Source: Aquipluma nitroreducens
GTDB taxonomy: Bacteria > Bacteroidota > Bacteroidia > Bacteroidales > Prolixibacteraceae
Length of the DNA stretch: 64,000 bases
Direction of reading: 5' to 3'
Assembly: GCF_009689585.1 (NCBI RefSeq)
Contig: NZ_AP018694.1
Location: 1,736,001-1,800,000 of the forward strand
The first letter of the stretch is position 1. Each line of letters opens with the position of its first letter. A model generated the notes under the pieces. The model was not told the DNA's origin. It saw only the letters and a program-made list of their open reading frames with translations, and made no database searches. The position numbers were made by a program, and so were the translations under genes. Positions 5,869-61,160 of the stretch are shown piece after piece.

Positions 5869-7266
5869 CTATATAAATCCAAGCCGACAGACGGCTTCCG
5901 GACTAATCAACCCGTTTAAAACCTGTTCGTTAATTACTCCCGAATTAATAATCGCCTGCCGTATTGTGATCTGCCCGTCTTTAGCTTTCTTAACAATTTC
6001 ACTGGCCTTTTCATAACCAATCACAGGAATAATCGCGGTAATCAGTGCTGTCGAATTCAATACATTTTTCCGGCATTGTTCTTCGTTTGCCTCCAAATCC
6101 TGAATACAATGAACTCGCAGCATTTTAGTAGCATTGGTCAGCAGTTCGATACTTTCCAGAAGCGAATGCGCCACAAGAGGCATGAATTGATTCAATTCCA
6201 GGTTTCCTCCGGCAGCGGCCTGAGCTATCACAACATCATTTCCCATTACTACCATGGCAACCTGTGCCGCAGCTTCAGGAATAACCGGATTCACTTTCCC
6301 CGGCATAATCGACGATCCGGCCTGTTTCTCCGGAAGCCTGATTTCAGCGAACCCGGCATCAGGACCACTGGCCATTAACCTCAAATCGTTGCTTATTTTC
6401 AGAATTGATACAGCACATGCTTTTAACATTCCCGAGACTTCCACATAAACATCGGCATTTTGAGTATTGTCAATCAGGTTTTCGGCTCGTGCCAACCCAA
6501 TTCCGGTATTTTCGCGCAATTTATCGACCACCCTGAAGATAAACTGGCGCGGAGCTCCCAGTCCCGAACCGATGGCTGTTCCACCCAAATTAACCACTCT
6601 TAATCGTTCCTCACATTTCGAAAAGCGCCAACGATCGCGATTAAAAGCTTCAGCATAGGCGCCCATTTCACAACCCAATGTGGTCAGAACCGCATCCTGA
6701 AGTTGGGTTCTACCAATCTTCACCACATGTGCAAACTCTTTTTCTTTTGCCTGAAATGCTTCCTGAAGGTCAAGCACCGATTGTTCGAGTTGACGAATCA
6801 TTCGGATAGCCGCAATTTTAAGCGCTGTTGGGTAAGAATCGTTTGTTGATTGATGCAGATTTACATCGTCGAGCGGAGAAATGAATGTATAATCGCCTTT
6901 TTCCTTTCCTGAAATCTCAAGAGCGCGATTGGCAATGACCTCGTTTACATTCATATTCGTCGAGGTACCAGCTCCTCCCTGAAGACTATCGACAACAACG
7001 TATTTATTCAAAAGTCCTTCTGCCATTTCAATGCAAGCCAGTTCAATGGCTTCGACTTTTTGGGTTTCGGTGAAATACCCCAATTGCCGGTTAGTCTGGA
7101 AGCATGAAAGTTTAACCGCACCGAAAGCTTTCACCAATTCCAGATGAACAGTCCTTCCGGAGATTTGGAAGTTCTCCAATGCCCGTTCAGTATGAATTCC
7201 CCACATCGAGTCGGCAGGAATCTGGCGTGTTCCAAGAAGATCGGTTTCTTTCCGGTATTTTTGCAT
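5869..7266 (-). CDS. aspA: Aspartate ammonia-lyase
   Basis: 465 residues, the usual length of aspartase, which reversibly converts L-aspartate to fumarate and ammonia. The fumarase/aspartase signature GSSIMPGKVNP is intact. The N-terminus has the aspartase-type DLLGTRQIPADSMWGIHT, and GGAGTSTNMNVNE and TNDSYPTALK, which line the active site, are present. Together these favour AspA over class II fumarase. It follows the Moco operon on the same strand after a 48-bp gap and could be cotranscribed, but no functional link is obvious. It suits an anaerobe that uses fumarate as an electron sink. Confidence 0.95.
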   Translation of the reverse strand: MQKYRKETDLLGTRQIPADSMWGIHTERALENFQISGRTVHLELVKAFGAVKLSCFQTNRQLGYFTETQKVEAIELACIEMAEGLLNKYVVVDSLQGGAGTSTNMNVNEVIANRALEISGKEKGDYTFISPLDDVNLHQSTNDSYPTALKIAAIRMIRQLEQSVLDLQEAFQAKEKEFAHVVKIGRTQLQDAVLTTLGCEMGAYAEAFNRDRWRFSKCEERLRVVNLGGTAIGSGLGAPRQFIFRVVDKLRENTGIGLARAENLIDNTQNADVYVEVSGMLKACAVSILKISNDLRLMASGPDAGFAEIRLPEKQAGSSIMPGKVNPVIPEAAAQVAMVVMGNDVVIAQAAAGGNLELNQFMPLVAHSLLESIELLTNATKMLRVHCIQDLEANEEQCRKNVLNSTALITAIIPVIGYEKASEIVKKAKDGQITIRQAIINSGVINEQVLNGLISPEAVCRLGFI

Positions 7267-7314: not shown

Positions 7315-7761
7315 TTACTTCTTTGTTTTGCTGATTAACCGGATGTCTTTCATCACCATCTCCTTGTCAACCGCTTTGCACATGTCGTAAACTGTAAGCA
7401 GCGCCACATTCACGCCGGTGAGCGCTTCCATTTCGACTCCGGTTTTTCCAAAGCACAAAGTGGTACATTCAACTTGCACACCGTCATCCTGAAGAGTACA
7501 TTTTACATCAATTTTCCAAAGTTGAAGCGGATGACAAAGCGGAATTAGTTCACCCGTACGTTTAGCTCCCTGGATTCCAGCAATTTCGGCAACAGTCAAC
7601 ACATCGCCTTTTTTGATCTGGTTCTGGCGAATCAGTTCAACGGTTTCGGGCTGAAGCTGAATAAAACCTCTGGCAACGGCTTCCCGCTCCTGATCAGGCT
7701 TTTGGCTGACATCAACCATTTTTGCCTTTCCTTTTTCGTCGATATGACTTAATTTATTCAT
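7315..7761 (-). CDS. moaC: Cyclic pyranopterin monophosphate synthase MoaC
   Basis: 148 residues. MoaC turns the MoaA product 3',8-cyclo-GTP into cPMP, the first stable Moco intermediate. The family core is present: LSHIDEKGKAKMVDVSQK, the HPL motif in IPLCHPLQL, and GVEMEALTGVNVALLTVYDMCKA with conserved Glu and Asp residues. The C-terminus is short (LISKTKK) and lacks the GG-KSG ending common in the family. It is the last gene of Moco operon 1, 66 bp after the moaA-like gene that should supply its substrate. Confidence 0.95.
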   Translation of the reverse strand: MNKLSHIDEKGKAKMVDVSQKPDQEREAVARGFIQLQPETVELIRQNQIKKGDVLTVAEIAGIQGAKRTGELIPLCHPLQLWKIDVKCTLQDDGVQVECTTLCFGKTGVEMEALTGVNVALLTVYDMCKAVDKEMVMKDIRLISKTKK

Positions 7762-7827: not shown

Positions 7828-8625
7828 TTATCCCCCAATATTATAGAATTCTCCTGACTTATTGTAAGTTCCGCTTTTCGGTTTGTTGCCTAAAGCCAAA
7901 TTCAATGCTTCCTGATGTCCTAATTTTCGAATATTGTAAGATAAATCGCTGAATAAACAGGGTTTAATGTCGCCATTGGCAAGTAAACGAACACGATTGC
8001 ATTTGCTGCAATTTCCACCGTCGCCACCTTCAACGGTTGAGAACTCTCCGGTTTTCAGGTTCATCTGGTGAATAAACCGCAATTTCAATCCGCGCTCCTC
8101 ACAGAACTGTTTGAGTTGCTGCGTTTCTTCATCGGGTTGGCCCAATAAAACGCAGTTCACTTTTATGGGCTCCAGTTGCGCTTCGCGGGCTGCGTCAATT
8201 CCTTCCAGAACCTGTTCCAAATTCCCGGTTCGGGTTATCTCGCAGTAGTTTTCAGGATTTACAGTATCCAAACTGATGTTGATCCGATTCAGTCCGGCAG
8301 CTTTTAACTTTCGTGCATATTTCGGTAACAAAATACCATTGGTTGTCATCGACAAGTCTTCCAATCCATCAATTGCAGCAAGCATCGAAACCAGTTCAAC
8401 AATGTCCTTTCGAACTAGTGGTTCACCGCCTGTCAGCCGCACTTTGGTAATTCCATTTGATACTGCCAATCTTGTAAATTCAACTATTTCTTCGAAGCTC
8501 AAAATGTCAGCATGATGGAGCAAACGAATAACTTCTTCGGGCATACAATACGTGCAGCGCAGGTTGCACCGGTCGGTCACCGAAATACGTAGATAGTTTA
8601 TGGAACGGTTAAAGCGGTCGAACAT
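7828..8625 (-). CDS. moaA: MoaA-like radical SAM GTP 3',8-cyclase, short form
   Basis: 265 residues. The N-terminal radical SAM cluster motif CNLRCTYC (C20, C24, C27) and GGEP (66-69) are intact. The second, substrate-side [4Fe-4S] motif CxxC-x13-C is present (C206, C209, C223), as is the C-terminal GG that MoaA inserts into its own active site. Compared with the usual 320-330 residues, about 60 are missing just before C206, where FIHQMNLKTGEF jumps straight to GGNCSKCN. The start overlaps the moeA stop by 17 bp. A full-length moaA lies at 55370. This one may be a divergent functional cyclase or a specialised paralogue. Confidence 0.8.
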   Translation of the reverse strand: MFDRFNRSINYLRISVTDRCNLRCTYCMPEEVIRLLHHADILSFEEIVEFTRLAVSNGITKVRLTGGEPLVRKDIVELVSMLAAIDGLEDLSMTTNGILLPKYARKLKAAGLNRINISLDTVNPENYCEITRTGNLEQVLEGIDAAREAQLEPIKVNCVLLGQPDEETQQLKQFCEERGLKLRFIHQMNLKTGEFSTVEGGDGGNCSKCNRVRLLANGDIKPCLFSDLSYNIRKLGHQEALNLALGNKPKSGTYNKSGEFYNIGG

Positions 8626-9790
8626 GAACGAGTTCTCCTTTCAAGATTTCAGTTGTTCCTGCAGGAACCGAAATGTACCCAAATGCTTGATGATAAGCAT
8701 GAATATGTGCAGACCCATGATATTCAACCAACGTGACTTCGTTTTGATTGGTAATCTGAACCGGCAAACATTCCTCTCGGTCGGTTTTTTTTCTGAAATA
8801 ATCGTGACTCATCGGCATGGGTAATTGAATTTCAGGCTGCTGATAATTCATCAATTTCCTAAGAAACGGCAAAGCAAAAACCTCGAACTGAATAAACGAC
8901 GAAACCGGATTTCCCGGCAGTCCAATAATGTATTTGTTTCCTTTCGATGCAAAAGTGATGTGCTGACCGGGTTTAATGTTGATTTTGTTGAAATGGATTT
9001 CGAACCCAAGTTTCTGAATAATCTTGGGAACAAAATCAAAATCGCCCACCGAAACTCCTCCTGAAAGAATGGTTACATCACTTTCAGCTACCGATTTCTC
9101 GATGATTTTTGTGGTTAATTGTTCGTCGTCGGGTACAATTCCGTAGTAATTTACCGGAAACCCCTGTTTTGTGGCCTGAGCAAAAAGCTGAGGACCATTC
9201 GAATTGCGAATTTGTGATGATCGTGGCGTAACCTCAGGATTAACCAGCTCCGATCCGGTTGAAATAATGCCCACTTGTGGTTTTTGATAAACCAACGGGT
9301 TGATGCACCCGACTGATGCCAATATGGCGACATGCTGCGGTTTTACCATCGTTCCCGACGAAATTACCAAATCTCCCTCTTTCAAATCCTCGCCTTTCAG
9401 GCAAATGTTCGAATTGGTTTTTTCTCCCGTAAACTTTATTTTTCCAGTGGCAGTTTCGCTTGAATATTCAACCATGAATACCGTATCAGCGCCTTCAGGA
9501 ACCTGAGCGCCAGTCATGATTTTGGAACATTGGCCCAAAGCAATACTTTTGGTTGGAGTGTATCCGGCAGGAATAATCTCAACGACCTCAAGTTCCATAT
9601 CCAAATCAGCCCTACGACAAGCGTAACCATCCATGGCCGATTTGTGAAAGGGCGGCATATCGGCATCGGCAATAACATCCTGAGCCAAAATACATCCGGA
9701 CGATTGCAAAAAATCTATAGTTTCGGTTCCCAATAATTGAGCTTTCGAAAAAGCTATTTCAAGGGCTTGTTCAAGCGTAATCATGCTCAT
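8609..9790 (-). CDS. moeA: Molybdopterin molybdenumtransferase MoeA
   Basis: About 393 residues. MoeA inserts molybdate into adenylylated molybdopterin. Family motifs include MPPFHKSAMDGYA, IMTGAQVPEGAD, STGSELV, LSGGVSVGDFDF and GLPGNPVSSF, covering the four MoeA domains. A start at 9790 (MSMITLEQAL) or 9784 fits the family, whereas the ATG at 9850 would run deep into mobB. The start overlaps the mobB stop by about 20 bp and the stop overlaps the moaA-like start, so the operon is tightly coupled. No separate mogA is seen in the window. Confidence 0.95.
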   Translation of the reverse strand: MSMITLEQALEIAFSKAQLLGTETIDFLQSSGCILAQDVIADADMPPFHKSAMDGYACRRADLDMELEVVEIIPAGYTPTKSIALGQCSKIMTGAQVPEGADTVFMVEYSSETATGKIKFTGEKTNSNICLKGEDLKEGDLVISSGTMVKPQHVAILASVGCINPLVYQKPQVGIISTGSELVNPEVTPRSSQIRNSNGPQLFAQATKQGFPVNYYGIVPDDEQLTTKIIEKSVAESDVTILSGGVSVGDFDFVPKIIQKLGFEIHFNKINIKPGQHITFASKGNKYIIGLPGNPVSSFIQFEVFALPFLRKLMNYQQPEIQLPMPMSHDYFRKKTDREECLPVQITNQNEVTLVEYHGSAHIHAYHQAFGYISVPAGTTEILKGELVHVRPL

Positions 9791-10319
9791 CAATTTTCCA
9801 GAATTTATGAAAATAAACGTGTCGTGGATTAAAGCTAAATTCTTCACCATCAGAAAATACCGTGGTGTCGGCCAGTTGCCGCATTTCTATAGCCCAAGGT
9901 TTTTCAATTGCGTCACTTCCTTGTACAAATACAAAAAGTTCGGGTACCAGAATATGTCGCAATCGGGCTGATTCGACTATAAAAGGGAGATCGGGATCCA
10001 ACAGGACAGAAGTTAGCTGGAAAGCTTCCTTCAAATAATCATCGGTTGTTTGAATAAAATAAACCTTTTCAGCTCCAGCCCTCAAATACCGTGAAGTATC
10101 TTTGTCTGAAGTATAATCAGTTTCCTCATAAATCCTGAAATTGCTATTCTCTACAATCGGGATTAAACCTTTGCCTGGCTCGTGAAAATGAGGCGTAATT
10201 TTAATAGCAGCCATTTTCTTCAGCGGGCTGCTGGCAATTACGTCGCAAATAAAAGTCGTTTTTCCAACATTCCGACTGGAGCCTGATACGAGCAATAAAT
10301 CTTTAAATCTTAAATTCAT
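9771..10319 (-). CDS. mobB: MobB-like Moco dinucleotide biosynthesis GTPase
   Basis: 182 residues with an N-terminal P-loop GSSRNVGKTT and the MobB-like switch region AAIKITPHFHE. MobB assists MobA in attaching GMP to Moco. The C-terminal half (FIVESARLRHILVPELFVFV) fits a SIMIBI-class NTPase. No mobA is in the window, and the divergence from classical MobB is clear, so the exact role is moderate confidence. It is the first gene of Moco operon 1, directly behind a structured leader whose last helix would end about 4 nt before this ATG. Confidence 0.72.
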   Translation of the reverse strand: MNLRFKDLLLVSGSSRNVGKTTFICDVIASSPLKKMAAIKITPHFHEPGKGLIPIVENSNFRIYEETDYTSDKDTSRYLRAGAEKVYFIQTTDDYLKEAFQLTSVLLDPDLPFIVESARLRHILVPELFVFVQGSDAIEKPWAIEMRQLADTTVFSDGEEFSFNPRHVYFHKFWKIDEHDYA

Positions 10320-10500
10320 TCTTGCGGCTTAAATACAGTTGCATGTAGGAGAAAATCGCAGACAAGCCACAAATTTGGGTAGCCGGGGTTCTCCTTTCCA
10401 ATTCATTCCACATCAGTGGAAATCGGGAGGCTGAAGCGTTTCTGCTTGCAACCCATCGGTTTTTAGGTACTTATGCAAAGCACTTAGTACCTATAACTCG
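10320..10500 (-). promoter_or_regulatory. Candidate Moco riboswitch in the leader of the mobB operon
   Basis: Read on the minus strand, the leader contains, in order: a hairpin TAGGTACT/AGTACCTA (about 10465-10494), GCCTCCCG at about 10424-10431, a hairpin TTCCAC-TGAT-GTGGAA (10407-10422), and GGAAAGGAGAACCCCGGC. The GCCTCCCG...GGAAAGG-G...GGC order matches what I recall of the Rfam Moco RNA motif in the E. coli moaA leader. Two alternative pairings are visible. AGGAGAA in the aptamer-like core can pair with TTCTCCT downstream, and TGTGGCTT can pair with AAGCCGCA, which ends 4 nt before the mobB ATG. That would suit translational control. The resemblance is by eye. Confidence 0.55.
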
Positions 10501-10565
10501 GAGCATTAAAAACATATGCAAATATAGAAATGTTTAGATGAGTTTCAAGAAATCTCGAATTTCAA

Positions 10566-55369: not shown

Positions 55370-56344
55370 TTATCCTCCAATATTTCTCATTGACAATTCA
55401 CTTCCATGAAATTTGACTGGCTGTTTCAGGCGCAGCAATCCTCTCAGCTTTTCAGTCAGCAGAACATCGTCATGAATATAAGGTGAAAGTTTTTCGCCGT
55501 GCGCATTGCTCAAACATCCGTAGAAAATACCGTTGCTATCCATTCGCAGCCGGTTACAATCGTGGCAAAACGGAGTCGATTCGTTGGCAATAATCCCGAA
55601 TGTTCCGCCACCCGAAGTCCGCCAGTAATTTGATGTTTCAGCGTATTCTCTTTTCACCGGTTCAATCGTATACTTTTCCTGAATGACGGCCAGCATTTCC
55701 TTTTCCGAAAAAAACAGCCCGTTCTCCGAATGGTACAAATGTCCCATTTTCATCAATTCCAGAAAACGGATTTTAACGCCCAACCCAGCAGCGTAATCGA
55801 GCAATGGTATAATCTGAGAATCGTTCTTTCCCCGCATGATCACTGCATTTAATTTTACATTCATTCCTGCTTTTACGGCAGCTTCAATTCCCTGAAAAAC
55901 CCTTGCGGTATTGGGATGACGAGAAATTTCACCGAAGATATCCTGATCGATTGCATCGACCGAAATGTTGATTGACTTCACACCTGCATCAAAAAGTTTT
56001 GACGCTCTTTCTTTCAGTAAATATCCATTGGTAGTGAGCCGAATATCAGAAATTCCGATTTTTTGAATGTGATTAATCAAATAAAAAAGATTACTATGCA
56101 ATAGCGGTTCACCACCGGTCAACCTAACGCTTTTTAACCCGGTCAAGCGATGCACCGCCTCAATCAGTTTAATAAATTCATCTGGAGCGAGAGGTTGGTC
56201 TGCAGTTTGCTCTTGGATTGTCTTTACTGATATGTTACCGAAATCCTCGCTGACACAATACACGCATGAAAAGTTACACTCATTCAATAAACTTATCCTG
56301 AGTTTTTCGAACCGCCTTCCCCGATTGTCTTCAATCTTTATCAT
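55370..56344 (-). CDS. moaA: GTP 3',8-cyclase MoaA, full-length
   Basis: 324 residues, the normal length. It has the radical SAM motif CNFSCVYC, GGEP in RLTGGEPLL, the mid-region missing from the 7828 paralogue, the second cluster motif CHDCNRLR with the third Cys 13 residues on, and the terminal IGG. It makes 3',8-cyclo-GTP for MoaC. The partner moaC lies in the other Moco operon at 7315. It is the first gene of operon 2, divergent from the iorA-like gene. Confidence 0.95.
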   Translation of the reverse strand: MIKIEDNRGRRFEKLRISLLNECNFSCVYCVSEDFGNISVKTIQEQTADQPLAPDEFIKLIEAVHRLTGLKSVRLTGGEPLLHSNLFYLINHIQKIGISDIRLTTNGYLLKERASKLFDAGVKSINISVDAIDQDIFGEISRHPNTARVFQGIEAAVKAGMNVKLNAVIMRGKNDSQIIPLLDYAAGLGVKIRFLELMKMGHLYHSENGLFFSEKEMLAVIQEKYTIEPVKREYAETSNYWRTSGGGTFGIIANESTPFCHDCNRLRMDSNGIFYGCLSNAHGEKLSPYIHDDVLLTEKLRGLLRLKQPVKFHGSELSMRNIGG

Positions 56345-56646
56345 GGTTTAATTTAACCATTTATATAATAATTTGTTCAGTCGTGTCGATCACTCATAGA
56401 CTCTATTTCTGCATTTCTCGCATGGATAATAAAAAAGTATAATTCAGCGTCATCCCTTTGTTCTCCCGAATTTGTTAATCCATTATTAATCATGAAGAAT
56501 CAAGCATTTAGGCAGATCGTGCCAAAAGATAACTGTTGGGTGAACCAAATAGATTTTTCCTTTGTTACGCTATTGACTAAGAAAATATTATCGCTTTACA
56601 TTCTGACTTATTCGCTAAAATTGAAAGATCCTAAATTTGAAATACT
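56345..56646. other. Divergent promoter region between moaA and the iorA-like gene
   Basis: This 302-bp stretch should contain both promoters. TAAATTTG at 56632-56639 matches the Bacteroidota -7 consensus TAnnTTTG on the plus strand, but only 7 bp before the ATG and without a clear -33 TTG at correct spacing. No riboswitch-like GGAAAGG element was seen. Confidence 0.5.
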
Positions 56647-57102
56647 ATGGCAATTTTTAAATTGAAAGTTAACAGAAAAGAATATCAGGTAGATGTTGAT
56701 CCTTCAACTCCGATGCTTTGGGTACTCCGGGATCATCTCAATCTGGTAGGTACCAAGTTTGGCTGTGGAATGGCACAATGCGGCGCCTGCACCATTCACC
56801 TTGACGGTGTTGCAGTGCGTTCGTGTATAACCTTTGTGGATTCAGTAGGAGACAAAGAAATAACAACCATTGAAGGACTTTCTGAAAATGGAGATCATCC
56901 GCTTCAACAAGCATGGATTGAACATGATGTGCCGCAATGTGGTTATTGCCAGAGTGGACAAATAATGAACGCAGCAGCATTATTGAAAGTAAATCCACAT
57001 CCAACCGATGAAGAAATTGAATCGGCCATGAATGGCAATATTTGCCGTTGTGGAACCTACACCCGAATCAAAGCAGCCATAAAAACTGCGGCCAATTCTT
57101 AA
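56647..57102 (+). CDS. (2Fe-2S) subunit of a molybdenum hydroxylase (IorA/CoxS-like)
   Basis: 151 residues. A plant-type ferredoxin cluster site is in [12 protein letters not shown]. The second cluster site is C-terminal, [16 protein letters not shown] and [12 protein letters not shown]. It passes electrons from the molybdenum subunit encoded next. The length and order match isoquinoline 1-oxidoreductase alpha-type subunits. It is divergent from Moco operon 2, which supplies its partner's cofactor. Confidence 0.93.
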
Positions 57103-57199
57103 TGGACCTTATATTTCAGGTCTGCTACTAATTTTCTTTGTTGACAGATGAAACGAGCCATGAGTAAAACATACTCACACACGAGGATGACAAAATAGT

Positions 57200-57240
57200 G
57201 AGTTCCATATGGCAATTAAGAAGCAAATTATAGACATATG
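57200..57240. repeat. Interspersed repeat copy 2, upstream of the molybdenum subunit gene
   Basis: TTCCATATGGCAATTAAGA followed by AGCAAATTATAGACATATGA. It matches 40592-40632 in the same orientation. Here it ends about 27 bp before the gene start, whereas in copy 1 it ends on the start codon itself. Confidence 0.55.
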
Positions 57241-57266
57241 AAATAGTTAATCTAAAATCACGAAAC

Positions 57267-59516
57267 ATGACAATTGTAAAAACAGAACTCAATAGACGTT
57301 CATTTATAAAAAGTTCGTTGTTAACTGGTGGGGGTCTGCTGATTGGTTTTAACTGGCTGGCAGCAGCCTGCAGTACATCTGCATCTAAAGGACAGTCCAT
57401 TCCTGACGAATGGTTTGAAATCAACGGTTATTTAAAGATCGGTGAAAATGGGGTGGTTACCATCATGTCGCCAAATCCTGAAATTGGCCAGAATGTAAAA
57501 ACATCAATGCCCATGATTGTCGCGGAAGAACTGGATGTTGACTGGAAAAATGTGTTGGTTGAACAAGCTCCGTTAAACACAGCTATTTTTAACAGACAAC
57601 TTGCTGGTGGAAGTGATTCCATAAAGCAAAGCTGGCCGGGTCTTCGAATGGCGGGGGCTTCAGCTCGAAAAATGCTGATGGATGCTGCTGCAAAAAAATG
57701 GAATGTACCGGTTGAAGAAATCACAACAGAACTTGGCATATTGTATCATAAAAATAGTGGCAAAAAAGCTGGTTATGGCGAAGTCGCTTCTGCCGCAGCC
57801 CAACTACCTGTCCCCAAAGAGGTCGAATTAAAAGACCTGAAAGATTTTAAAATCATTGGAACTTCTAAAAAAAATGTGGATGGGCATAAAATAGTGGTTG
57901 GCCAACCCTTGTTTGGCCTCGATTACAAAAAAGAAGGAATGCTAATTGCCATGATCGTCCATCCGCCGGCTTTTGGGATGAAACTGAAATCTTTCGATGC
58001 AACGGATGTAAAGACCAAACCTGGAATCAAAGACGTTTTTCAAATTAAATTATTTAACGACGACTATAAACCACAGTGGTGCGACACAACTTCGTTCACT
58101 GAACTGGTTGCCATTGTTGGCAATTCAACCTGGGAAGTAATGAGCGCCAAGGCGTATTTAAAAGTTGAATGGGAGCCCTTTGCGGATTATAAAATCGCCA
58201 TGGCGGGTTGGGGAGGAGATCAGCTCGTTAATGTTCCATCCGGGCTTGAAAGTACGGCCGACCACAACGCCAAAATGGTGGCAGCAGCTGCCAAACCGGG
58301 TAAGATTGAGCGAAGAGATGGCAATCCGGAAGAAGCTTTTAAAAAAGCAGCCAAGGTGATTGAACGTACCTATACCGCACCATTTCTGGCACACACGCCG
58401 ATGGAGCCCATGAACTTTTTTGCCGATGTATCTGCTGATAATGCGATATTAGTTGGACCAATTCAGTCTCCTGAATATATGGAAAAGACCTTGTCGGCAC
58501 GGCTTGGTTTGCCACTTGAAAAAATTGACATTCAGATGACCCGGATGGGAGGTGGATTTGGACGACGCTTGTACGGACATTTTATGGTTGAAGCCGCATT
58601 GATTTCGCAAAAAGTAAAAGCGCCGGTTAAACTGATTTATACACGCGAAGATGAAATCACATTTGGCATTTATCGTCCGGCATATCACGCTTTGTATAGG
58701 GCCGCGTTGGATTCAAACAATAATCTCACTGCTTTTCATGTCAAAATGGGCGGAGTTCCTGAAAATGCACTCCATGCTAACCGGTTCCCTGCCGGAGCAG
58801 TAGATAATTACCTGGCCGAAAGTTGGGCCATTGAATCGAACATTACTGTTGGGGCAATGAGGGCACCTGGTTCCAACTTCAATGCCGTAGCGGAGCAGTC
58901 GTTCCTTGACGAGCTGGCAGAAGCAATGGGCAAAGATCCCATCCAGTTTCGTCTCGATCTATTGAAAAGGGCAAAGGAAAATCCGGTGGGCGAGAAAAAC
59001 GATTACGATGCAGCCCGTTATGCCGGAGTAATTGAATTGGTGCGCGACAAATCAGGCTGGGAAAAAGATTCTGCCGGAAAGAATCGCGGAGTTGCGGCCT
59101 ATTTTTGTCATAGTTCGTATGTGGCAAATGTGGTGGATATCACCGGAGATAAAGATAATCCTGTCATTCAAAAAGTTTATACTGCTATCGACTGTGGGGT
59201 TGTTGTGAATCCGGATGCTGCAATTAACATGACCGAAGGTGCCATCGTGGACGGAATTGGACAGTCCATGTATGGACAGCTCACATTTAGTAAAGGTCAA
59301 CCAGATCAGGATAATTTCGATTCTTATCGTTTGATCCGGCATACCGAAGCTCCCAAAGAGATTGAAGTTCACTTTGTTCAGAATGAGATTCATCCAACAG
59401 GCCTTGGCGAACCACCTTATCCACCGGTTATGGGCGCATTGGCAAATGCTTTATACAAAGCAACCGGTGATAGATACCGCCATCAACCATTCATTAAAAA
59501 CAGTTTTGAATCATAA
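57267..59516 (+). CDS. Molybdenum-binding subunit (IorB-like) with Tat/lipoprotein signal
   Basis: 749 residues of the xanthine dehydrogenase family. The Tat motif RRSFIK (10-15) is followed by a hydrophobic stretch and a lipobox-like LAAAC (C35), so export and lipidation are possible. Moco-binding motifs include RMGGGFGRRLYGHF, GAMRAPGSNFNAVAEQ and the catalytic Glu region PTGLGEPPYPPVMGALANAL. It catalyses hydroxylation or aldehyde oxidation of an unknown substrate. It lies 164 bp behind the small subunit. Confidence 0.92.
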   Translation: MTIVKTELNRRSFIKSSLLTGGGLLIGFNWLAAACSTSASKGQSIPDEWFEINGYLKIGENGVVTIMSPNPEIGQNVKTSMPMIVAEELDVDWKNVLVEQAPLNTAIFNRQLAGGSDSIKQSWPGLRMAGASARKMLMDAAAKKWNVPVEEITTELGILYHKNSGKKAGYGEVASAAAQLPVPKEVELKDLKDFKIIGTSKKNVDGHKIVVGQPLFGLDYKKEGMLIAMIVHPPAFGMKLKSFDATDVKTKPGIKDVFQIKLFNDDYKPQWCDTTSFTELVAIVGNSTWEVMSAKAYLKVEWEPFADYKIAMAGWGGDQLVNVPSGLESTADHNAKMVAAAAKPGKIERRDGNPEEAFKKAAKVIERTYTAPFLAHTPMEPMNFFADVSADNAILVGPIQSPEYMEKTLSARLGLPLEKIDIQMTRMGGGFGRRLYGHFMVEAALISQKVKAPVKLIYTREDEITFGIYRPAYHALYRAALDSNNNLTAFHVKMGGVPENALHANRFPAGAVDNYLAESWAIESNITVGAMRAPGSNFNAVAEQSFLDELAEAMGKDPIQFRLDLLKRAKENPVGEKNDYDAARYAGVIELVRDKSGWEKDSAGKNRGVAAYFCHSSYVANVVDITGDKDNPVIQKVYTAIDCGVVVNPDAAINMTEGAIVDGIGQSMYGQLTFSKGQPDQDNFDSYRLIRHTEAPKEIEVHFVQNEIHPTGLGEPPYPPVMGALANALYKATGDRYRHQPFIKNSFES

Positions 59517-59545
59517 AGAAACCCGGATATTTTTAGTTGAACGCG

Positions 59546-60562
59546 ATGACACACGAAATAAAATTGCTGTTTCAAACATTAAAGACCTGGCAGCAACAGG
59601 GGAAAAAAGCTGTTTTTGTTACCGTGGTCGATTTGGAAGGTTCTTCCTACCGGCGTCCCGGTGTTCGCATGGTATTTAATGAAGATGGCGATTCTACAGG
59701 TGCAGTTAGTGGAGGCTGCGTTGAAACGGAAATAGAACGACAGGCTCAAAGTGTATTTAAAAGTGGGAAAGCAAAATTAATGACCTACGACGGTCGCTTG
59801 CGGATCGGCTGCGAAGGGATTCTTCATATTTTAATCGAACCAGTTTTTCTTTCTGAAGAACTTTTGAAAAACTTTGAAACGGCATTAAAACACCGGCAAA
59901 ATTTCAGGATTGATGCTTATTACTATCCTGAAGTAGGCGAACATAAAAATGCAGGAACAGTCGTAATCTTGAATGGTAAAACATATTCCTTAAATCCATT
60001 TTTTGAATCAGTGCAGATTGATGATCAGGAATGCTTTTCTCAAAAATTCAACCCCCTGTTTCAATTGTATATTTTTGGAGCTGAACACGATGCTGTTCAA
60101 TTGTGTCAGGCAGCCAAATTACTGGGCTGGGAAGTGACAATTGTGGCTTCGGCAGATGAATCAAAATCCTGTGATTATTTCCCGGGTGCTGATGCTTTAA
60201 TCTCTCCATTTTTCGAAAACATCGACACCTCGGATGTGGATGAGCAAACGGCAGTGGTTATTATGACACACAGTTATAATAAAGATGTGCAATATCTGAT
60301 GGCGCTGAAAGAGATCAGACCTGCTTACCTCGGTATTGTCGGTTCAATAAACCGGAGGGAACGATTGTTATCAACTTTACTCGACTATTTTCCGGATATT
60401 TCACCCGAATTTCTGGAACAGATTCACAGCCCGGCAGGAATCAACATTGGCGCAGAAACTGCTTCAGAGATTGCCGTTTCCATTCTGGCCGAAATCTTAG
60501 CTGTAATTCGGAATAAAAAGCCCGAAGCATTACGAAATAAAGTAGGTTCAATCCATGGCTGA
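59546..60562 (+). CDS. XdhC/CoxI-family Moco insertion chaperone
   Basis: 338 residues from ATG 59546 (MTHEIKLLF); a TTG at 59537 is also possible. The XdhC_CoxI N-domain has LEGSSYRRPGVRMVF and SGGCVETEI, and a Rossmann C-domain has VVIMTHSYNKDVQYL, LGIVGSINRRERLL and SPAGINIGAETASEIAVSI. Such proteins bind and insert Moco (often with the terminal sulfido ligand) into hydroxylases like the one upstream. Confidence 0.92.
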   Translation: MTHEIKLLFQTLKTWQQQGKKAVFVTVVDLEGSSYRRPGVRMVFNEDGDSTGAVSGGCVETEIERQAQSVFKSGKAKLMTYDGRLRIGCEGILHILIEPVFLSEELLKNFETALKHRQNFRIDAYYYPEVGEHKNAGTVVILNGKTYSLNPFFESVQIDDQECFSQKFNPLFQLYIFGAEHDAVQLCQAAKLLGWEVTIVASADESKSCDYFPGADALISPFFENIDTSDVDEQTAVVIMTHSYNKDVQYLMALKEIRPAYLGIVGSINRRERLLSTLLDYFPDISPEFLEQIHSPAGINIGAETASEIAVSILAEILAVIRNKKPEALRNKVGSIHG

Positions 60563-61160
60563 AATTCCGGTTTTACTTTTGGCAGCTGGTGGTTCAAGCC
60601 GAATGGGACAACCCAAACAGTTGTTACCCTGGGGGAACCAAACCCTGATCGAGCATCAAATTGAGATTTTGCAGGATACAGGCAATCCGATTAATGTCGT
60701 TATCGGTTCAAATTCGGATCTTGTCATTCCCGTTATTGAGAAATATCCGGTAAACATCTTTATTAATACGGATTGGGAAAGTGGAATGGGTAGCTCCATT
60801 TCGTTTGGAATCGGTCAGATAATCCAGAAATTTCCGGCGGCAGATGGAGTTTTGATCACTTTGCTGGATCAACCCTTGCTTACGACTTCCTACTTTGAAA
60901 AAATGTTTGACGCCTATCAACCCAATTCTAAACAAATCCTGGTCTCACGCTCCGCTTCAGGATGGACAGGCGTTCCCGTACTTTTTGATCAATGCTTTTT
61001 GAAGGAACTTACCGAATTGAGCAATGACAAAGGCGCTAAAAAAGTTATTAAACGCCACGAAGAAAATGTAATCCGATTGGAATCTGACGACATATTGGAG
61101 GACATGGATACCTTTCAATCCTACCAACAATTATTGGAAAAATATTTGACTAAACTCTAG
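60555..61160 (+). CDS. mocA: MocA-like molybdenum cofactor cytidylyltransferase
   Basis: 201 residues. The nucleotidyltransferase motif LLAAGGSSRMGQPKQLLPW is at the N-terminus; SGMGSSISFGI and LLDQPLLTTSYFEKM follow. MocA attaches CMP to Moco, giving the MCD form used by xanthine-oxidase-family enzymes. The start overlaps xdhC by 8 bp. The convergent AraC gene overlaps its stop by 4 bp. Confidence 0.9.
   Translation: MAEIPVLLLAAGGSSRMGQPKQLLPWGNQTLIEHQIEILQDTGNPINVVIGSNSDLVIPVIEKYPVNIFINTDWESGMGSSISFGIGQIIQKFPAADGVLITLLDQPLLTTSYFEKMFDAYQPNSKQILVSRSASGWTGVPVLFDQCFLKELTELSNDKGAKKVIKRHEENVIRLESDDILEDMDTFQSYQQLLEKYLTKL

Follow-up and report, generated by a model that had tools for sequence, protein, structure and literature searches.

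The locus and its operon

The window, the whole 64,000-nt stretch of Aquipluma nitroreducens DNA analysed here, carries on its minus strand an RNA leader that stands before the MoeA, MoaA and MoaC genes of Moco synthesis. The features, from the leader to the end of the operon, are as follows.

10519 to 10526, minus strand: TATATTTG, a TAnnTTTG promoter box recognised by motif, 15 nt upstream of CTCCGAG
10375 to 10515, minus strand: Moco RNA aptamer without stem P3 (core 10503-10391; RF01055, 53.1 bits), the CC of P2 and the GGG of P4 separated only by GAT
10400 to 10424, minus strand: extra hairpin inside the loop closed by P5, arms TTCCAC (10421-10416) and GTGGAA (10411-10406), from its recurrence in relatives and compensatory changes
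10391 to 10394, minus strand: GGAG, the 3' strand of P1, with its partner CTCC at 10503-10500, from the RF01055 match and the alignment with relatives
10347 to 10353, minus strand: TTCTCCT, a possible anti-P1 element that can pair with AGGAGAA (10395-10389), not significant in the window sequence alone
10321 to 10373, minus strand: predicted start-proximal helix of 11 pairs, TTTGTGGCTTG (10373-10363) with TAAGCCGCAAG (10331-10321), one base before the ATG, from complementarity and folding
9771 to 10319, minus strand: gene for a MobB-like P-loop protein of 182 aa, from weak PF03205 matches of its homologues, ATG at 10319
8609 to 9850, minus strand: moeA, product over the Pfam cut-offs
7828 to 8625, minus strand: moaA, short form of 265 aa, radical SAM domain over the Pfam cut-off, TIGR02666 284.0 bits against a cut-off of 284.05
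7315 to 7761, minus strand: moaC, product over the Pfam cut-offs

The preliminary description had read these genes as a mobB-moeA-moaA-moaC operon, which holds for the last three. At E 0.001 the product of the first gene matched no model of Pfam or NCBIfam, and PF03205 is matched weakly by 6 of its 15 aligned homologues (best E 1.2e-4). Because the assignment rests on these homologue matches, MobB-like is the safe name; no solved structure was found for the protein by sequence at E 0.01. The short MoaA (265-266 aa) also occurs in relatives, the window copy lying 0.05 bits under the TIGR02666 cut-off. Most relatives have a MOSC-Mog fusion gene as the last gene of the operon, but none was found at that place in the window or in G098; in the window an aspartase/fumarase-family gene (5869-7266) comes after moaC instead. 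A second Moco-related cluster (55370-61160) lies 45 kb from the riboswitch operon. It comprises a second MoaA-like gene (55370-56344, minus strand), followed by genes for a 2Fe-2S subunit and the large subunit of a Mo-hydroxylase, and then by XdhC-like and MocA-like genes.

A Moco RNA aptamer with an extra hairpin

The Rfam Moco RNA model (RF01055), proposed earlier as the check on this leader, matches it at 10515-10375 of the minus strand over its full length (model positions 1-135; 53.1 bits, E 7.3e-10), above the gathering threshold of 36 bits. This is the sole Rfam match at gathering thresholds in the 64-kb window, and RF01055 has no other match in the genome. The conserved junction of Moco RNAs (CUCCGAG, GCCUCCC and GGAAAGGAG) is present, and the core lies on the minus strand, with CTCCGAG from 10503, GCCTCCCG from 10431 and GGAAAGGAG at 10399-10391. 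P4 has the GAAA tetraloop, but an A-C mismatch closes it; of the tetraloop receptor in P2, CUAAG is kept and the other side is changed.

A scan of 100 genomes of the same bacterial family, with stricter filters by which weak matches can be lost, gave RF01055 matches over the cut-off in 53, mostly directly upstream of Moco genes. The core CTCCGAG...GAAA...CCTCCC...GGAAAGGAG is nearly invariant in all 53 leaders inspected. Judged from its sequence, the window leader is thus a Moco riboswitch of an already known family. The preliminary description had supposed as much from a GGAAAGG-containing core between hairpins, which was found on the minus strand, and had placed the element in Bacteroidota, the phylum of its relatives. 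It had overlooked that the element lacks stem P3, and RNAs of this type are attributed in published work to the tungsten cofactor (Tuco).

The extra TTCCAC/GTGGAA hairpin, also proposed earlier, is a real covarying element, because it recurs in 52 of the 53 leaders (47 distinct loops; G002 is without it) and its pairs are kept across distinct loops. Loops of 26 nt come in 17 distinct sequences, at least 16 of which keep any one of the six pairs, and the fourth pair shows six different pairings, so that the suggested search for compensatory changes among related genomes found them here. An insertion at this site also occurs in several RF01055 leaders elsewhere in the phylum and is thus not confined to the bacterial family.

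The aptamer is preceded by a match to TAnnTTTG, the Bacteroidota -7 promoter consensus. In 38 of the 53 leaders, such a box lies upstream of the core with its end at a distance of 0-30 nt, against a mean of 1.3 and a maximum of 6 in 100 mononucleotide shuffles.

A TauE/SafE permease under riboswitch control

In 14 of the 53 riboswitch leaders, the first controlled gene encodes a TauE/SafE-family permease (PF01925; 117.4 bits, cut-off 32.6). Twelve of these loci were obtained as clustered reading frames, and G095 and G072 were confirmed separately; the G072 permease is cut by a contig end, and the G063 copy lies in two frames with a stop. Of the riboswitch genomes, 16 lack ModA and 37 have it; the permease stands first in 14 of the former and in none of the latter (Fisher 5e-11, uncorrected for phylogeny). 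Orthologues located anywhere in the genome were found in 15/16 and 1/37 (G080), respectively, the one in G047 lying elsewhere with no Moco gene beside it. A TauE/SafE match in G038 (165 bits) was rejected as a paralogue because it adjoins genes for an ArsR-type regulator and an ArsC-like protein (by eye), which leaves the count at 15/16, 14 of them in the operon. Both states, permease and ModA, occur inside each of the genera g1, g11 and g17.

The alternation extends beyond the family. Among 198 genomes of the class, 70 have the permease (at least 139 bits) and 19 have ModA over the cut-off, with no overlap against 6.7 expected (p 2e-4); G179 combines the permease with a ModA-like match below the cut-off, and both states recur inside each of the genera g204, g232 and g43. 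Over all 100 family genomes the association is weaker (2/42 vs 16/58, G038 counted; p 0.003). Sixteen family genomes have molybdoenzyme matches but no riboswitch, and 13 of these have neither ModA nor the permease; therefore, ModA absence alone is no predictor of the permease.

Of the 433 permease relatives found, the best 80 from named genomes have a Moco gene within 7 kb in 69 cases (within 1.5 kb in 68), a riboswitch core just upstream in 23, either feature in 73 and neither in 7. Ten of the 23 named core-bearing leaders were run against Rfam and all ten matched RF01055, including those of Carboxylicivirga mesophila, C. marina and C. sp. M1479. The order in Pedobacter polaris is moaA, moeA, permease, a ThiF-family gene, moaE and moaC-mog, and in Flavobacterium sp. 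11 the permease comes after genes for a Mo-hydroxylase, XdhC, a MobA-like transferase and MoeA. A tree of 101 permeases shows the members linked to Moco genes or to the riboswitch in clusters; three of five paralogues fall outside, and two fall inside Moco-linked clusters on very long, unsure branches.

The riboswitch-controlled permease is therefore put forward as a candidate molybdate importer, its transport being predicted from these associations. Sequence searches at E 0.01 found no solved structure for it. That a sulfur compound (sulfite or sulfate) is carried instead of molybdate is rather unlikely, although it would agree with the known members, one of which exports sulfite while another takes up sulfate by complementation (PMC11535334), and with the 13 riboswitch-less molybdoenzyme genomes that lack both ModA and the permease. 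The alternation with ModA in riboswitch genomes, the empty overlap in the class sample and the Moco genes beside 69 of the best 80 named relatives argue against a sulfur substrate, and the sulfate uptake itself makes an oxyanion such as molybdate plausible. In the literature covered, most of it outside subscription journals, no published link of TauE/SafE (TSUP, COG0730) permeases to molybdate or Moco was found.

Expression platforms and the mode of switching

The expression platforms, as predicted, differ between genera. In several related genera, a hairpin followed by a U-run carries CCTTTCC, the complement of the aptamer's GGAAAGG, in its 5' arm. In the genus of the window, P1 has complements some 35-40 nt further downstream, within or close to a hairpin that covers the start.

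Perfect 6-nt complements of GGAAAGGAG occur in 25 of the 39 permease-less leaders, against a mean of 5.9 and a maximum of 12 in 200 shuffles; control elements of the same composition gave 17, 11, 3 and 11 in the same leaders, the one with 17 sharing CCTTTCC. Permease-first leaders have such complements in 1 of 14, against 1.3 in shuffles, and the window has a perfect complement of only 5 nt. Anti-P1 pairing with G-U allowed was tried and set aside as not convincing (mean 6.7 vs 6.1 in shuffles).

Two competing helices had been described in the window leader. The pairing of AGGAGAA with TTCTCCT is possible and appears in the free fold, but the complementarity alone is no better than chance (p ~0.2 vs 40 shuffles). 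The pairing of TGTGGCTT with AAGCCGCA, noted shortly before the mobB start, proved to be part of the 11-pair start-proximal helix. Without constraint, the window leader folds into the AGGAGAA/TTCTCCT helix, and with P1 enforced it forms the start-proximal helix instead, at a cost of 1.8 kcal/mol. This swap vanished in folding with other RNA ends, which covered 46 of the 53 leaders (three without a found start and four over-long ones were excluded). There, P1 enforcement lowered start accessibility in none of the 32 mobB-first leaders, window included, and raised it in one. The expected effect was given only by four permease-first leaders (G029, G049, G041 and G008) in which P1 adjoins the start, its GGAG lying 8-10 nt before it. 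Equilibrium folding was accordingly discarded as proof of switching, since the window looked bistable and the effect was gone with other ends.

A translational OFF switch is a plausible best guess for the window, and an OFF-type Moco riboswitch acting on translation at the MobB-like start is likely the best account of the whole. Transcription would begin just before the aptamer, and Moco rather than Tuco would stabilise the core together with P1. As long as P1 is closed, the start-proximal helix would cover the bases before the MobB-like ATG and keep translation low, such that plentiful Moco would lower the expression of the Moco biosynthesis genes. Without ligand, the 3' strand of P1 would pair with TTCTCCT, a segment within the start-site helix, and the start would open. 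Relatives would join the same aptamer to other platforms, namely terminator-like hairpins whose 5' arm carries CCTTTCC, start-covering hairpins, or the P1 GGAG serving as ribosome-binding site.

Action on translation had already been suggested, and it agrees with the start helix, although the answer from folding varies with the ends chosen. Control of transcription by termination or Rho is unlikely in the window, whose leader has no hairpin with a U-run before the ATG, even though several related genera do have such hairpins. The Moco switch of E. coli is reported as an OFF switch (PMC2408646) that works by transcription termination (PMC12121620).

The missing P3 and the ligand

Moco RNAs have been divided by stem P3, which 58 of 176 RNAs lacked; Tuco genes, with tupA/tupB or wtpA among the tungsten markers, were reported in 17 of 19 organisms with P3-less RNAs, and Tuco sensing was proposed (PMC2408646). 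A 2022 review still lists the tungsten-cofactor riboswitch, citing that work (PMC9971707). In the bacterial family P3 is absent from all 53 leaders, P2 and the GGG of P4 being 1-4 nt apart, and for this reason a Tuco ligand has to be considered.

The genome content points elsewhere. AOR (PF01314) was found in none of the 53 riboswitch genomes, that of the window included, and in two of the 100 family genomes, both without a riboswitch. In a sample of 395 genomes of the phylum, RF01055 matches occur in 21, of which 19 are above the cut-off, and none of these genomes is among the 4 with AOR. Molybdoenzyme matches are present in 53/53 riboswitch genomes (PF00384 in 52, PF02738 in 37) and ModA in 37. 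The genome of the window has ModE-like, ModA, ModB and ModC-like genes in one cluster, as well as NarG (2017.6 bits) and a PhsA-like enzyme. From AOR in 0/53, ModA in 37/53 and molybdoenzymes in 53/53, the P3-less RNA of this family probably senses Moco, and these relatives cast doubt on the P3 rule for telling Moco from Tuco sensors.

A Tuco sensor in the window, as the missing P3 and the 17 of 19 organisms would predict (PMC2408646), is accordingly rated lower, AOR not having been found while ModA and NarG were; together with the Mo-hydroxylase of the same genome and the empty AOR overlap in the phylum, this leaves it quite improbable. In some organisms tungsten can serve in enzymes of the PF00384 family, which would favour Tuco. 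On the other side, TTTS, a motif of TupA, was absent from the matches at the 77 PF12849 loci inspected, a weak test limited to matches of at least 50 bits.

Some further observations concern the same elements. In the phylum sample, 5 of 22 RF01055 matches have an insertion at the P3 position (by eye), the sub-threshold G384 being doubtful. G247 carries two Moco RNAs (L132 and L148) about 21 kb apart on one contig, and only one of the two has an insertion at the P3 site. In the genome of the window, two molybdopterin-domain matches of equal score (231.5 bits) lie 17 kb apart, at G000:C1:4756124-4758310 (NarG) and 4773454-4775640, and narG may be duplicated. G018, of the same genus as the window, gave no RF01055 match despite ModA and Mo-hydroxylase matches.

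That the window leader is a decaying, functionless copy, as the A-C mismatch in P4, a low score within a family reaching 77.2 bits and the missing match in G018 might suggest, is hardly credible, since almost the same aptamer is kept in G098 and the core, promoter box and genes are all intact.

Significance

The riboswitch family is known, and the locus is of interest for two questions, one on the P3 rule and one on the permease. The 2008 P3 rule has a good test ground in a bacterial family that combines P3-less RNAs with molybdoenzymes and ModA and whose riboswitch genomes gave no AOR matches, and the riboswitch points to one small membrane protein as a possible new molybdate transporter. In a published survey of how bacteria use molybdenum, 278 were without a known Mo transporter, and further uptake systems were allowed for (PMC6147048). 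We tentatively suggest, at somewhat short of even confidence, that the absence of P3 is no Tuco marker, that the P3-less aptamer of Bacteroidota senses Moco, and that its regulon holds an unrecognised TauE/SafE molybdate importer which replaces ModABC in much of the phylum and would explain part of the Mo-using bacteria without a known transporter.

Comparison with known systems

The Moco RNA of E. coli moaA (RF01055; PMC2408646) shares with the window the aptamer family, the site before Moco biosynthesis genes and a GGAG-containing P1. The window RNA differs in lacking P3, in its extra P5-loop hairpin, in the position of the P1 GGAG about 70 nt from the start codon, and in belonging to another phylum; the abstract of that paper lists groups that include environmental DNA and does not name Bacteroidota, the host phylum here. 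The proposed Tuco riboswitches (PMC2408646) resemble the RNAs of this bacterial family in the absence of P3, whereas the genomes of the family have ModA and molybdoenzymes and no AOR matches. The first controlled gene of the relatives matches PF01925 like other TauE/SafE (TSUP) permeases. The known substrates of these permeases are sulfur compounds, whereas the Moco-linked group adjoins Moco genes and alternates with ModA.
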